Shown here: positions 8,016 through 17,204 of the stretch, piece after piece
Layout of the letters: each line of letters starts with the position of its first letter
How positions within the stretch are numbered: the first letter of the stretch is position 1
From: a virus
Length of the DNA stretch: 30,297 nucleotides
IMG/VR virus record: IMGVR_UViG_3300027816_000298
Coordinates: 1 to 30,297 of that record
Reading direction: 5' to 3' (one strand)
Position numbers and translations under genes: made by a program
Notes under the pieces: generated by a model
Seen by the model: only the letters and a program-made list of their open reading frames with translations
Databases searched by the model: none
What the model was told of the DNA's origin: nothing

Positions 8016-8067
8016 TACACCCGTAAGGGTGTAATACACCCATAAACACCCCCATATATACCCGTAA
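8016..8067 (+). repeat. Three iteron-like direct repeats (TACACCCGTAA type)
   Basis: TACACCCGTAA (8016-8026), TACACCCATAA (8035-8045) and TATACCCGTAA (8057-8067) repeat with start-to-start distances of 19 and 22 bp. The first is also half of a perfect hairpin TACACCC-GTAA-GGGTGTA (8016-8033), and the third extends to ACCCGTAAGGGGT (8060-8072); the two CGTAAGGG centres are 41 bp apart, about four helical turns. Such phasing suits a dimeric repressor or an initiator protein. Confidence 0.55.
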
Positions 8068-8241: not shown

Positions 8242-8670
8242 ATGTCAAAAAAAAGCATCGGCCTTCGTGAAGCCGCTAAAATCACAGAAATCTCTCATTT
8301 GCAGAATCGTCCTTATGATGTAGACGCAGAGCATCCATTTTATGGTCGTTCTTACAATGCGTACAGTTATTTAAACACAACTTTCACAGTTCCTTCAGAC
8401 AGTCGTTTTGCCAAATGGTTCAACGACGGTATTCTGCACACTGTAGAATTCCAAGTGGGAACCCGAAAGGCTGTTGACAGAGACACCAAGGAAGAAATTG
8501 ATGTGGAATCTCTGCAAGTTGTGTCTTGTCTTTCCACCAAGCAGCACAAAGAGATTTTGGAGAGCGAAATGCAAGACGAAAAGGCTGCATTCCAAAAGCG
8601 TGCTTATCGTGAAATGGCTGCCACCAAAGTTATGGACACTCAGTTGCTTAACGAATTAGCGAACGATTAG
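8242..8670 (+). CDS. Hypothetical protein, first gene of the rightward block, probably highly expressed
   Basis: I chose the ATG at 8242 (MSKKSIGLREAAKITEI). An upstream in-frame ATG at 8143 would add a 33-residue unlikely sequence that runs through the G-rich region. The 142-residue product is soluble, with a probable beta-rich middle (YLNTTFTVPSDSRFAKWFND, LHTVEFQVGTRKAVD) and a helical C-terminus. Its codon use differs from the other genes: six of eight Arg codons are CGT, while AGA prevails elsewhere, and GC is higher. Together with the strong hairpin after the stop, this suggests an abundant early product, possibly a DNA-binding protein. I do not recognise the family. Confidence 0.75.
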   Translation: MSKKSIGLREAAKITEISHLQNRPYDVDAEHPFYGRSYNAYSYLNTTFTVPSDSRFAKWFNDGILHTVEFQVGTRKAVDRDTKEEIDVESLQVVSCLSTKQHKEILESEMQDEKAAFQKRAYREMAATKVMDTQLLNELAND

Positions 8671-8679
8671 AATTGTAAA

Positions 8680-8709
8680 TGAAAGGGGAGTAGAAATACT
8701 TCCCTTTCA
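8680..8709 (+). terminator. Strong hairpin with GAAA loop after the first rightward gene
   Basis: A 13-bp stem with one G-U pair, TGAAAGGGGAGTA (8680-8692) with TACTTCCCTTTCA (8697-8709), is closed by a GAAA tetraloop of the stable GNRA type. No U-tract follows, so it may be an mRNA 3'-end stabiliser or a factor-dependent terminator, not a classical intrinsic one. Confidence 0.65.
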
Positions 8710-8927
8710 TATATAAGGGTGGGAAACGACCTTAGCCTGCGAAGTGTCTTGTTTGGGTGGGGAATAAATGTCCAATTTTGTTGCTAAAATGTTGCATAAC
8801 TCGTTGATAATCAAGGAGATGTATAACCCCTTCACGCTTTCAATGTGTTCTTTTCAATTCACCAATTTAATTCATTCATTGCTATACATATAGCATTAAA
8901 AAGTCTGTATACAGGCAACCTATTGTT
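8710..8927. other. Gene-free stretch with two palindromes
   Basis: No coding frame is seen. Two close inverted repeats lie before the next small gene: GCTATACATATAGC (8881-8894) and the perfect CTGTATACAG (8905-8914). They could be operator sites for the small gene at 8928. A weak promoter-like TTTG / CAATTTTG pair (about 8752-8776) has a short spacer and is not convincing. Confidence 0.4.
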
Positions 8928-14220: not shown

Positions 14221-14907
14221 ATGTTTAAAAAGTGTAAAGTGGTTATGCTTCCCACTAAAGAAAAAGCAAATATTATAAAACATGATTTAGGTCATATCTT
14301 TTATAGTAAAGAAGCATTAAATAAAGAAACTGTTTCAATGTTAAGTAATCAACATCTCTATTTCCTATCAGATGAAGAAGAAATTAAAGAGGGTGATTGG
14401 TGTTATGATAAAGTATTGAATGTTATATTTCAAACTGATGAACACACAGATTTCAAATATATTAATCAAACAGATATGGTTTTTGTTTTTAATAATGTAT
14501 TAAAAATCATTGCCACTACTGATGATTCTTTAGCTATTCCTTACGATGGTAAAACACCAATCAGTGAAAATTGGGGAGGATATAAATTACCTCAACCCTC
14601 TCAATCATTCATTGAAAAATATGTAGAAGAATATAACAATGGAAATGTTATTACAGAGGTGAGAGTTGAGTATGAATTTGGTGGTATTGAAGAGTCTTAT
14701 TTTGATGGCAACAATGAGAAATTACCTTTAAGATTAAAAGTCAATCCCAAAGACAACACCATCACTATTCGTAAGGTGAAGGATAGTTGGAGTAGAGATG
14801 AACTGATTATACTTCTCAACAAGTTTGGTTCTAAAGTGTATGGTGAATATACAAGAAACGAAACAATGGAAGATTTTACTGATAAATGGATAGAACAAAA
14901 CCTTTAA
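14221..14907 (+). CDS. Hypothetical conserved phage protein
   Basis: A 228-residue protein. Residues about 50-62 (FLSDEEEIKEGDW) and 92-99 (LKIIATTD) form a module that is also seen in the protein at 20008 (YISGNEVQVGD, KKVIATNN). Then ENWGGYKLPQPSQSFIEKYV (about 116-135), YNNGNVITEVRVEYEF, and a beta-rich C-terminal half. The IPQPS/FIEKYVEEYN pattern is widespread in Bacteroidota-phage accessory proteins as I recall, function unknown. First gene after the gene-free 456-nt stretch; ATG at 14221, preceded by TACGTTATGT. Confidence 0.68.
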   Translation: MFKKCKVVMLPTKEKANIIKHDLGHIFYSKEALNKETVSMLSNQHLYFLSDEEEIKEGDWCYDKVLNVIFQTDEHTDFKYINQTDMVFVFNNVLKIIATTDDSLAIPYDGKTPISENWGGYKLPQPSQSFIEKYVEEYNNGNVITEVRVEYEFGGIEESYFDGNNEKLPLRLKVNPKDNTITIRKVKDSWSRDELIILLNKFGSKVYGEYTRNETMEDFTDKWIEQNL

Positions 14908-14920
14908 AAACACATAAACT

Positions 14921-15763
14921 ATGAACGTAGATGAATTTCCAATAGAAATAAGACATTTAATGTTGTATAGACAGCAAGAGCAACAGGGAAAAAGAGATTG
15001 GTCTGTATTTCAAAATCTAAAAATAAGTGGATTCACTTGGGATCAAACACCAGAAAAAGAAGACTTTTGGTGGAATGTTATAAGTAATGAAAAGTTTGAT
15101 GTATTCTATGCTAAATATCCAAAGGTGGACTATCCCAAAGACATGCCTGAAGAAATTAAAATGTTAGTTCTTGATAGAAGAGTGGAACAAGAATGGCCAA
15201 AAAATTGTCGCTTAGGGTTTCATTGGAGTGTAGCTCCAGAAAATTTTGATTTTTGGAATAAAATTCATGGAGGAAAATACTCAGTCTACTACGAGAAATA
15301 TGGACATCCTACTAAAACTAATACTTCTACACCTTCTTATAAAGGAGATATAAAAGATTTCCCTCCTGAAGTGGTAGAACTAATGCTTCAAAGACAGTTT
15401 GAACAAACAGGTAAACGTGATGTATCTTTGTTTGAAAAAGATAGAACAATAGGTAAAGGAGTCGGTGGATTCACTTGGGACGAGACAATAGAAGATTGGG
15501 TTTTTTGGCATAATGTTATTGAAGATAAAAAGTTTCAGGTATTCTTTGAAAAATACCCTAAACAGTCTCTTATTAATTCACATATAAAAACAAAACAAAA
15601 TGACAAAGAAAGTACAACCAGCAGCACAGGGATCAAAGTATTTAAACCTGTTGCAACAATCTCAAACGGAGAAAAACGAACAGGAACAAGAATTTCAGGC
15701 AGAAGCAGCAAAACAACAATTGGAAGCGGACATATTAGCTACCAAGCGGTCATTGGCTATTAG
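14921..15763 (+). CDS. Protein with three tandem W-rich modules
   Basis: The 280-residue product holds three copies of a roughly 60-residue unit at about 5-67, 73-127 and 145-214. Each unit has a P-E-I/V start, a helix with L-x-R, G-F-T/H-W in the middle and an F/Y-x-K-Y end: FPIEIRHLMLYRQQEQQ / MPEEIKMLVLDRRVEQ / FPPEVVELMLQRQFEQ; FTWDQTPEKEDFWWNV / FHWSVAPENFDFWNKI / FTWDETIEDWVFWHNV. The last 55 residues are low complexity and overlap the next gene by 164 nt in another frame, as if a stop had been lost by a shift at about 15585. No function is known. Confidence 0.68.
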   Translation: MNVDEFPIEIRHLMLYRQQEQQGKRDWSVFQNLKISGFTWDQTPEKEDFWWNVISNEKFDVFYAKYPKVDYPKDMPEEIKMLVLDRRVEQEWPKNCRLGFHWSVAPENFDFWNKIHGGKYSVYYEKYGHPTKTNTSTPSYKGDIKDFPPEVVELMLQRQFEQTGKRDVSLFEKDRTIGKGVGGFTWDETIEDWVFWHNVIEDKKFQVFFEKYPKQSLINSHIKTKQNDKESTTSSTGIKVFKPVATISNGEKRTGTRISGRSSKTTIGSGHISYQAVIGY

Positions 15764-15896
15764 TAGACAAGACCTGTTGAAAGCTAAATCAGCACAGCCA
15801 TTCAATGCCCAAAGAATCATTGATGTACAAATCCACATTGAAGGATTGGAAGATGGCTTAGACAGATTGCTTAATCTGATGGAAGAATTGTTCTAA
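15600..15896 (+). CDS. Coiled-coil phage protein
   Basis: A 98-residue protein with a short polar head (MTKKVQPAAQGSKYLNLLQQ) and a long Gln/Glu/Lys/Ala helix (QTEKNEQEQEFQAEAAKQQL; LATKRSLAISRQDLLKAKSA) ending in IEGLEDGLDRLLNLMEELF. Heptad-like spacing suggests a coiled coil. Its ATG follows an A-rich leader (ACAAAACAAA), so I treat it as the true gene and the overlapping tail of the upstream gene as secondary. Next is the structured RNA at 15904. Confidence 0.65.
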   Translation: MTKKVQPAAQGSKYLNLLQQSQTEKNEQEQEFQAEAAKQQLEADILATKRSLAISRQDLLKAKSAQPFNAQRIIDVQIHIEGLEDGLDRLLNLMEELF

Positions 15897-15903
15897 AAAA
15901 CTG

Positions 15904-16105
15904 AAAAACTGCTGATTAACACTGAACAGTAACTCAAAAGTAATAGAGGAGCGACAGTAATGCACGTTACTATTATGTTACAACACAGTTCTAAGATGTG
16001 TTTAGTTTAGGTTAAGTGTATATCAGGTAATGTACGTTGGAGAACCAACGGAGGATAGTCCTGCTCTATTATCCACTTAGAAGGACAGCAGTTTTTCTTT
16101 TATTT
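15904..16105 (+). ncRNA. Candidate structured non-coding RNA with terminator
   Basis: A perfect 11-bp long-range helix AAAAACTGCTG (15904-15914) with CAGCAGTTTTT (16086-16096) encloses nested helices. GTAAC / GTTAC (15929-15933, 15977-15981), TAATA / TATTA (15941-15945, 15971-15975) and AGTAA / TTACT (15956-15960, 15967-15971) form one arm (the last two compete for base 15971). AACACA / TGTGTT (15982-15987, 15997-16002) forms a second. TAAGTG (16013-16018) with CACTTA (16074-16079) encloses CGTTGG-AGAA-CCAACG (16035-16050) and GGATA / TATCC. A U-rich tract CTTTTATTTG follows the closing helix. There is no ORF. I do not recognise an RNA class. Confidence 0.62.
16086..16105 (+). terminator. U-rich end of the structured RNA
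   Basis: The 3' strand of the closing helix (CAGCAGTTTTT) runs into CTTTTATTT. Together with the 11-bp helix it looks like the 3' end of a terminated transcript. Confidence 0.5.
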
Positions 16106-16121
16106 GTCCTGACTACTAAAA
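16104..16121 (+). repeat. 18-bp direct repeat, copy 1 (pair with 16671-16688)
   Basis: TTGTCCTGACTACTAAAA occurs here and again exactly at 16671-16688, 567 bp away. The core CCTGACTA is complementary to TAGTCAGG at 16366-16373. The pair brackets a two-gene module. Confidence 0.85.
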
Positions 16122-16131
16122 ATTAAACAAC

Positions 16132-16362
16132 GTGACTGTAAAAGAAGCAGAACTTACAAAAAACATAGTAGAGAATAAATTACTACTGATGAACAAATTA
16201 AATGACGTAGGTAAACACCAAAACGCTTTAATGAAGAGGATGAGTAAAGAGAGATGTGATGACATCCATTCTGTTTTAAGAAGTAAAGATTATGCTAATA
16301 GCATTATCGAATTGGAAGCCAAAAAAGAATTATTGATTGACTTGCTAAGTAAAGTAAAATAA
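16132..16362 (+). CDS. Hypothetical charged helical protein
   Basis: A 76-residue protein with a probable GTG start at 16132 after an A-rich leader; the next in-frame ATG at about 16189 would remove the first 19 residues. The sequence is all helix and charge (TVKEAELTKNIVENKLLLMN; GKHQNALMKRMSKERCDDIH; YANSIIELEAKKELLIDLLS), compatible with a small coiled-coil protein. Family unknown. Confidence 0.55.
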   Translation: MTVKEAELTKNIVENKLLLMNKLNDVGKHQNALMKRMSKERCDDIHSVLRSKDYANSIIELEAKKELLIDLLSKVK

Positions 16363-16365
16363 ACA

Positions 16366-16682
16366 TAGTCAGGTGGCGGAATTGGTAGACGCTAACAGCG
16401 GGGGAAGATGGTAGGATTTGAATTAACCACAAAAGATAATTAGATGCAGAAAGTTGAAAATATAGACGAAACCCCCGCTTTTGCAAATCACGTGTTACCT
16501 GCCGTTTATTGGTTGGTAGCTTGGTTAGGTTGTTGCCTTATTTTAGGCTCAATATTTTATTCAAATATTCAACATAAAAAAAGGATTGATAAAATATTTG
16601 ATGATTATTATAAGGAGATGTCTGTTATAAATGGCAGGTAACACATAAATACACGCTATAAGCATTCAAATTGTCCTGACTA
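16366..16682 (+). other. tRNA-Leu-like, acceptor-closed RNA element containing a small ORF
   Basis: The 5' part (AGTCAGGTGGCGGAATTGG, then TAGACGC; 16367-16392) matches the acceptor strand, U8-G9 and D-arm of tRNA-Leu (GCGG-AATTGGTAGA-CGC). The complementary acceptor strand CCTGACTA is at 16675-16682, preceded by a T-loop-like TTCAAAT (16665-16671). Between them are two further perfect helices, AGCGGGGG (16397-16404) with CCCCCGCT (16472-16479) and GTGTTACCTGCC (16492-16503) with GGCAGGTAACAC (16633-16644), and the ORF 16444-16641. No ordinary anticodon arm or 5-bp T-stem can be drawn, so this is not a standard tRNA. It could be a broken tRNA-Leu, an interrupted tRNA, or a tmRNA-like fold. 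Confidence 0.4.
16444..16641 (+). CDS. Small single-pass membrane protein
   Basis: A 65-residue product: MQKVENIDETPAFANHVLPA, then a hydrophobic helix (VYWLVAWLGCCLILGSIFYS) and a charged tail (HKKRIDKIFDDYYKEMSV). The gene sits inside the tRNA-Leu-like element, and both long helices of that element fall partly within its reading frame. Expression from this transcript could therefore be controlled by RNA folding. Function unknown. Confidence 0.55.
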   Translation: MQKVENIDETPAFANHVLPAVYWLVAWLGCCLILGSIFYSNIQHKKRIDKIFDDYYKEMSVINGR

Positions 16683-16688
16683 CTAAAA
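16671..16688 (+). repeat. 18-bp direct repeat, copy 2 (pair with 16104-16121)
   Basis: Second exact copy of TTGTCCTGACTACTAAAA, here as the leader of the next small gene and as the 3' end of the tRNA-Leu-like element. Both copies are followed by A-rich sequence and a start codon. Confidence 0.85.
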
Positions 16689-16698
16689 CACAAAACAT

Positions 16699-16794
16699 AT
16701 GATGTTATTTTTTATTGTATCAGCCTTTATTCTAATAGCATTGGCTGTAGATGTTATTAAACAAGCAAACAAATACAAAAACATAGACAAATGA
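16699..16794 (+). CDS. 31-residue membrane micro-protein
   Basis: Two in-frame ATGs at 16699 and 16702 give MMLFFIVSAFILIALAVDVI then KQANKYKNIDK: one hydrophobic helix and a basic tail. The stop overlaps the next start (ATGA), which supports translational coupling. One of several tiny membrane proteins in this region. Confidence 0.5.
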   Translation: MMLFFIVSAFILIALAVDVIKQANKYKNIDK

Positions 16795-17204
16795 AAGAAT
16801 TTATACCATATCAAGAAGCATTAGCTCTTAAAGAACTAGGATTCGATGAACCATGTTTTGGATTTTATAATAATCATGAACCTAAACGAGGTCCAAGAGG
16901 TTTAGTAATAAGTGGTTATCAAGACCATAATGAAGAAACTGAAGGAGATGATTTAATTTGTTCAGCACCAACCTATTCCCAAGCATTTCGTTTCTTTAGG
17001 GAGAAGTATGGGTTACATCAATACATCAAACAATATTATGGGGAGAAGTTCTATTTTCAAATTGAAGACATGGTTCACCCCAGAAGATGGGATGAATACA
17101 CGGTAGAGATGCTTAGATCATTTAATGAATCCACTTCACAAGAAGAATCAGAACTTGCTTGTCTGAAGAAATTAATTGAACTTGTTAAAAACAAAGAAAA
17201 ATGA
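16791..17204 (+). CDS. Hypothetical conserved phage protein (paralogue of 21562)
   Basis: A 137-residue protein: EFIPYQEALALKELGFDEPC (about 3-22), ICSAPTYSQAFRFFREKYGL (about 56-75), then FYFQIEDMV. The layout 'x-LKELGFDE - - W/FY - - APT-x-A-x-x-W/F-F-REKYG' recurs in the protein at 21562, so the two are paralogues or share a domain. Such proteins are common in phages of Bacteroidota as far as I recall, function unknown. Coupled to both neighbours by ATGA overlaps. Confidence 0.7.
   Translation: MKEFIPYQEALALKELGFDEPCFGFYNNHEPKRGPRGLVISGYQDHNEETEGDDLICSAPTYSQAFRFFREKYGLHQYIKQYYGEKFYFQIEDMVHPRRWDEYTVEMLRSFNESTSQEESELACLKKLIELVKNKEK

Follow-up and report, generated by a model that had tools for sequence, protein, structure and literature searches.

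The intergenic DNA between two ORFs (15600-15896 and 16132-16362) of an uncultivated virus record raises the question of whether a structured RNA is encoded there and what such an RNA would do for the phage. The window, that is, the whole stretch of DNA analysed, is a 30.3-kb IMG/VR virus record from a phage that encodes a DNA polymerase of family B (with Crassvirales among its best named matches), a terminase (PHROG 6681), a portal protein (PHROG 6547) and a DnaB-type helicase. The original prediction placed at this locus an RNA of about 200 nt, closed by an 11-bp helix and ending in a U-tract. The analysis revealed a plus-strand structured RNA some 195 nt long (15903-16097, from P1 to P1'), with a conserved unit of about 182-197 nt across its members, which is best read as a new, rare phage ncRNA family of a known kind, the putative orphan ncRNAs of phage tRNA islands.

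The closing helix was found exactly where it had been predicted, AAAAACTGCTG (15904-15914) pairing with CAGCAGTTTTT (16086-16096), and G15903-C16097 extends it to 12 bp (P1, 15903-15914 with 16086-16097, the latter at the start of the U-tract). That a perfect 11-bp pair should be very unlikely by chance is true locally, given that 1% of shuffles of the 241-nt stretch alone hold such a pairing of at least 11 bp, but not across the window, where five perfect pairings this long or longer, with strands 20-250 nt apart, compare with 3.4 ± 1.7 in dinucleotide shuffles. Folding beats shuffled sequence and yet is not extreme: the RNA folds at -50.8 kcal/mol (RNAfold, z -2.5, four of 200 shuffles equally good), with a similar value on the opposite strand (z -2.6) and z values of -1.9 and -4.0 in the two homologs described below (L007 and L009, respectively). 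The RNA is counted as real because these homologs keep the helix by compensatory changes.

The homologs came from a pattern scan with the 18-nt block GGAGGATAGTCCTGCTCT, taken from the 3' third of the RNA, which returned three IMG/VR contigs. One of them (3300031963_000506) is a sister of the window, 99.8% identical to it over 20.9 kb and thus not independent; it was also the only match in single-protein scans with the neighbouring ORFs 15600-15896 and 16791-17204. The other two, 3300046009_009408 (L007) and 3300008266_002326 (L009, 8.4 kb), match the window RNA with 86% and 88% identity over a 132-nt core (blastn). The L007 phage and the window phage have a handful of proteins in common, with 23-40% identity in the longer matches, and the 8.4-kb L009 contig gave no protein match with the window; either the RNA is thus conserved far beyond the proteins, or it has been exchanged. 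A covariance model built from L007 and L009 only (leave-one-out cmsearch) found the window at 15902-16098 with 148.1 bits, so that the RNA closed by P1 is conserved in its relatives in both sequence and pairing. Nearly the same RNA carried by three distantly related or unrelated phages looks like a small new viral RNA class.

In the proposed fold P1 would close a junction of P2 (bearing P3 and P4), P5, P6 and P7. P1 measures 12-15 bp across the three members (AAAAAC/GUUUUU in the window, AAACAAC/GUUGUUU in L007, AAGUAAC/GUUACUU in L009), with three pairs changed on both sides and one A.C mismatch in L007. P2 joins TTAAC-A-CTGAAC (15916-15927, A15921 bulged) to GTTTAGGTTAA (16005-16015) through 11 bp that are 100% paired, including one compensatory pair and three wobble changes. 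P3 (15929-15981) has a conserved base, GTAAC/GTTAC, 100% paired in the three members, whereas its arm (15934-15976) varies in sequence and length and is unalignable (about 20-30% identity between members, 9-11 identical positions in 40-43 columns). Identity is 85-92% in the core (P3' to just before P1', 108-109 columns). A variable arm beside a conserved core is what a structured RNA usually shows when one of its arms, here P3, can expand. The P4 hairpin (15982-16002, AACACA-GTTCTAAGA-TGTGTT) has two compensatory pairs and a nearly invariant loop. P5 (16019-16034, UAUAU-CAGGUA-AUGUA) forms 5 bp in the three members, with one C-G/U-G change and an invariant loop, and is followed directly by P6 (16035-16050, CGUUGG-AGAA-CCAACG, a loop of the AGNN type), the AGAA hairpin of the original prediction, whose stem is invariant in all members. 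P7 (16053-16074, GGAUA/UAUCC, with the conserved UCCUGCUCU in its loop) pairs in the window, in L009 with one G-U and in L007 only with a bulge; RNAalifold prefers an alternative, AGGA/UCCU, at 16052-16062. The U-rich 3' end (16090-16105) is conserved as a feature in all three members. Its reading as a termination point was not supported: no intrinsic terminator was found, the U's lie mostly in the P1 3' strand, and P1 of L009 is followed after 5 nt by the start of a tRNA gene.

Two loop pairings suggest a compact pseudoknotted fold. In the first (PK1) the UUCUAAG of the P4 loop (15989-15995) is complementary over 7 nt (6 nt in L007) to CUUAGAA just before P1' (16076-16082), and at least seven complementary nucleotides occur in 0.4% of shuffles of the unpaired bases (P = 0.004). 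The nested TAAGTG/CACTTA helix proposed earlier is present in the window only and broken in both homologs, and its CUUA more likely pairs with the P4 loop. In the second (PK2), tentative and of 4 bp only, CAGG of the P5 loop (16024-16027) is a candidate partner of CCUG in the P7 loop (16060-16063), both strands being complementary and invariant in the three members. With three members, the invariant helices P6, PK1 and PK2 lie beyond covariation testing, and we thus infer the two loop contacts from complementarity. The full model, the nested P1-P7 plus both loop pairings, comprises 61 pairs, or 181 pair cells over the three sequences, 98.3% of which are standard pairs. Both sides have changed in six pairs (three in P1, one in P2 and two in P4); slid controls are 33-45% paired, with at most one such pair. 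RNAalifold recovers P1-P6 unaided. The G-U pairs favour the plus strand, since seven of them become mismatches on the minus strand and three A-C behave in the reverse manner. Single-base indels in the core and the intergenic position speak against a conserved reading frame.

The neighbours of the RNA are tRNA and tRNA-like genes. In L009 it begins 2 nt after a tRNA-Asp (tRNA end at 8251, P1 start at 8249), P1 ends at 8064 and a Ser-type tRNA starts 5 nt on, at 8059; a tRNA-Arg and a cut tRNA lie further out. In L007 about 12 nt separate it from a preceding tRNA-Leu-like gene, whose anticodon region is enlarged, and another tRNA-like gene follows it. In the window a tRNA 3'-end-like remnant, TTGTCCTGACTACTAAAA (16104-16121), is found directly downstream of the RNA, with a second copy at 16671-16688; it resembles the encoded 3' end of an L007 tRNA-like gene, TTCTCCTGACTACAAA. 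The 5' half of a tRNA-Leu-like gene follows 270 nt downstream of the RNA. The genes that flank this cassette in the window (14221-14904 and 16791-17201) have counterparts that are adjacent in the L007 phage, where the RNA sits at another locus. Judged from these three loci, the RNA moves together with tRNA-type genes.

Several features of these surroundings are recorded in their own right. The Ser-type tRNA of L009 (7975-8059, minus strand; anticodon TGA by eye) has a 6-bp D stem and a GGGG loop, scores 43 bits against the tRNA-Sec model (gathering score 47) and is reminiscent of allo-tRNAs. The three tRNA-like genes of L007 (7318-7417, 7914-8032 and 8321-8434) combine well-formed acceptor, D and T arms (30-41 bits) with enlarged, non-standard anticodon/variable regions, and were missed by ARAGORN. 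Between the last two, at 8243-8315, the hairpins CCTCATA../TATGAGG and TGGAGG../CCTCCA carry the complementary loops AAACCCAT and ATGGGTT, and this pair is possibly a second structured RNA adjoining the first. The string [CT]TGACTAC(T)AAA recurs just upstream of ORF starts in both phages (window 16104-16121 and 16671-16688; L007 7769 and 8431), and such 3'-end-like strings are perhaps tRNA remnants used as mRNA punctuation. At 16367-16681 of the window, where neither ARAGORN nor Rfam called a tRNA, the tRNA-Leu-like 5' half AGTCAGGTGGCGGAATTGGTAGACGC and a complementary 3' acceptor strand, CCTGACT (16675), are about 300 nt apart, the gap holding a 65-aa membrane-type ORF (16444-16641) and a possible H-type pseudoknot, GCGGGGG/CCCCCGC with GATTTG/CAAATC. 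Upstream of the RNA, ORF 14921-15763 has an internal repeat (15027-15123 and 15465-15561, 71% identical).

The distribution of the RNA is patchy, and it is rare in what could be searched. No credible homolog was found by blastn in the INPHARED phages or the PLSDB plasmids, and one pattern scan of GTDB genome contigs gave chance matches only. Covariance-model searches did not find it in 395 Bacteroidota genomes, in 50 crAss-like records recruited by their polymerase (one with a PolB 66% identical) or in 30 loci and 10 named phages, results that bound the family only roughly, given a model of three close sequences. The best of the weak matches (E 0.014) falls within an annotated CDS of an immuto phage, keeps neither P1 nor P5 and was rejected. 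The pattern CAGGTAATG..GGATAGTCC returned, besides the homologs, group I introns and chance matches; among the matches listed for TAGTTTAGG..CAGGTAAT most were due to chance. One crAss-like contig (L171) contains a candidate tmRNA gene called by ARAGORN (8371-8754), with an unusual long tag. Absence from crAss-like relatives indicates that the RNA travels as a cassette.

Taken together, the RNA is probably a stand-alone, trans-acting phage ncRNA of about 190 nt, cut from a tRNA-array transcript and binding a host factor. It would be transcribed from the plus strand as part of the tRNA/tRNA-like array and released when the enzymes that mature the adjoining tRNAs cut it free; in the window, the U-rich 3' end with no intact tRNA leaves room for independent transcription. 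Held together by the pseudoknot between the P4 loop and the 3' strand, and possibly by the contact between the P5 and P7 loops, its invariant junction and loop sequences could offer a surface, most likely for a host translation, RNA-processing or defence factor. Such binding is suggested by the setting and by general knowledge of phage tRNA biology; location in a tRNA array is by itself no proof of a role in tRNA biology. The differing downstream genes argue against a fixed cis target and, together with the flush spacing to tRNAs and the strong conservation of the junction, favour a free-standing RNA that is excised and acts in trans. A more specific picture is possible but doubtful, namely a new compact pseudoknotted class that moves between unrelated phages with tRNA or tRNA-like genes and serves as an infection effector, for example by occupying the ribosome, a tRNA-processing factor or a tRNA-targeting defence factor, or as a ribozyme.

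Junctions and loops are also conserved in riboswitches, and the RNA might be a cis-acting leader in which ligand- or protein-dependent refolding controls the downstream gene (ORF 16132-16362 in the window, which starts 34 nt after P1). In all members the CUGCU of P7 has an alternative partner in the 3' CAGCAG, which might act as a switch. This is unlikely, because a riboswitch should precede the same gene family, whereas the three members have three different downstream contexts (an orphan ORF in the window, two hairpins and a tRNA-like gene in L007 and the Ser-type tRNA 5 nt off in L009), and no terminator-type expression platform was found. Presence in distant phages and absence from the 50 crAss-like records, including the one with the 66% identical PolB, would suit a structured RNA element, mobile or selfish, that passes from one phage tRNA array to another and does little for the phage, as would the counterparts of the flanking genes that are adjacent in the L007 phage with no RNA between them. 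The element, however, encodes no protein, shows neither target-duplication boundaries nor an intron core, and is conserved to a degree that, barring a recent transfer, implies that the RNA itself is under selection; a selfish origin is quite unlikely.

A catalytic RNA, either self-cleaving or a tRNA-processing ribozyme that trims its own array transcript, is very unlikely in spite of the compact pseudoknotted fold, the invariant single-stranded segments and the position flush with tRNA ends. Neither a ribozyme nor an RNase P model of Rfam matches the window even at E≤10. The likeness of GGAGGAUAGUCC to the CR-I motif GGAGGAAAGUCC of RNase P RNA is by eye only, no CR-V-like partner forms P4, and the order of the helices differs. 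The group I introns from the pattern scan have two short strings in common with the RNA; unlike them, it has no GGACUAUC-type strand before GGAUAGUCC for the P7 pairing (GACUA...UAGUC) that marks such introns together with a P3-P8 core, nor does it match an intron in Rfam. A circularly permuted group I intron was discarded as well, as the R-like CTGACTACTAAA follows the RNA in neither homolog. Flush tRNA ends and U-rich ends could also mean that the RNA only spaces or punctuates the tRNA transcript for processing, its fold protecting ends or guiding RNases, but a core this conserved exceeds the needs of a spacer and leaves that explanation highly improbable. The chance of a fortuitous fold in intergenic sequence, for which the number of 11-bp inverted repeats expected in such a window and a z of only -2.5 would speak, is practically negligible, as the homologs, the compensatory changes and the leave-one-out detection refute it. 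The stand-alone trans-acting RNA is thus retained as the preferred reading.

With respect to known classes, nothing in Rfam 15 matched the whole window at gathering score, in agreement with the earlier remark that no RNA class of this shape was known. In the region 15700-16720, matches at E≤10 were due to chance and all lay outside the RNA; at E≤1 none fell on the RNA in L007 or L009, and ARAGORN and cmscan detected no tRNA/tmRNA domain in it. Since every model test failed, the RNA was not filed in any family. To our knowledge, phages have yielded few classes of structured RNA. In T4, species 1 and 2 (RNA C and RNA D) are stable non-tRNA RNAs embedded in the tRNA cluster, and the RNA is likened to them by this setting, not by sequence or structure. 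Closer in kind are ROOL and GOLLD, structured ncRNAs of phages and prophages that occur near tRNA islands, often so in the case of ROOL (PMC12286853). ROOL is pseudoknotted, of unknown function and about 660 nt long in the structure studied, and GOLLD, often above 800 nt, rises in expression at lysis (PMC12286853). The RNA likewise belongs to phage genomes near tRNA genes (tRNAs in L009, tRNA-like genes in L007 and remnants in the window), but at between a quarter and a third of their size it falls short of the length criterion of about 500 nt, and their family models match it in none of the window, L007 and L009; homo-oligomeric assembly is a further criterion of those classes. Compared with these tRNA-island classes, which lack a known function, it is much smaller (less than 200 nt) and strongly conserved; a class of this kind would be easy to probe and image, and its presence in distant phages makes directly testable what tRNA arrays carry besides tRNAs, and why.
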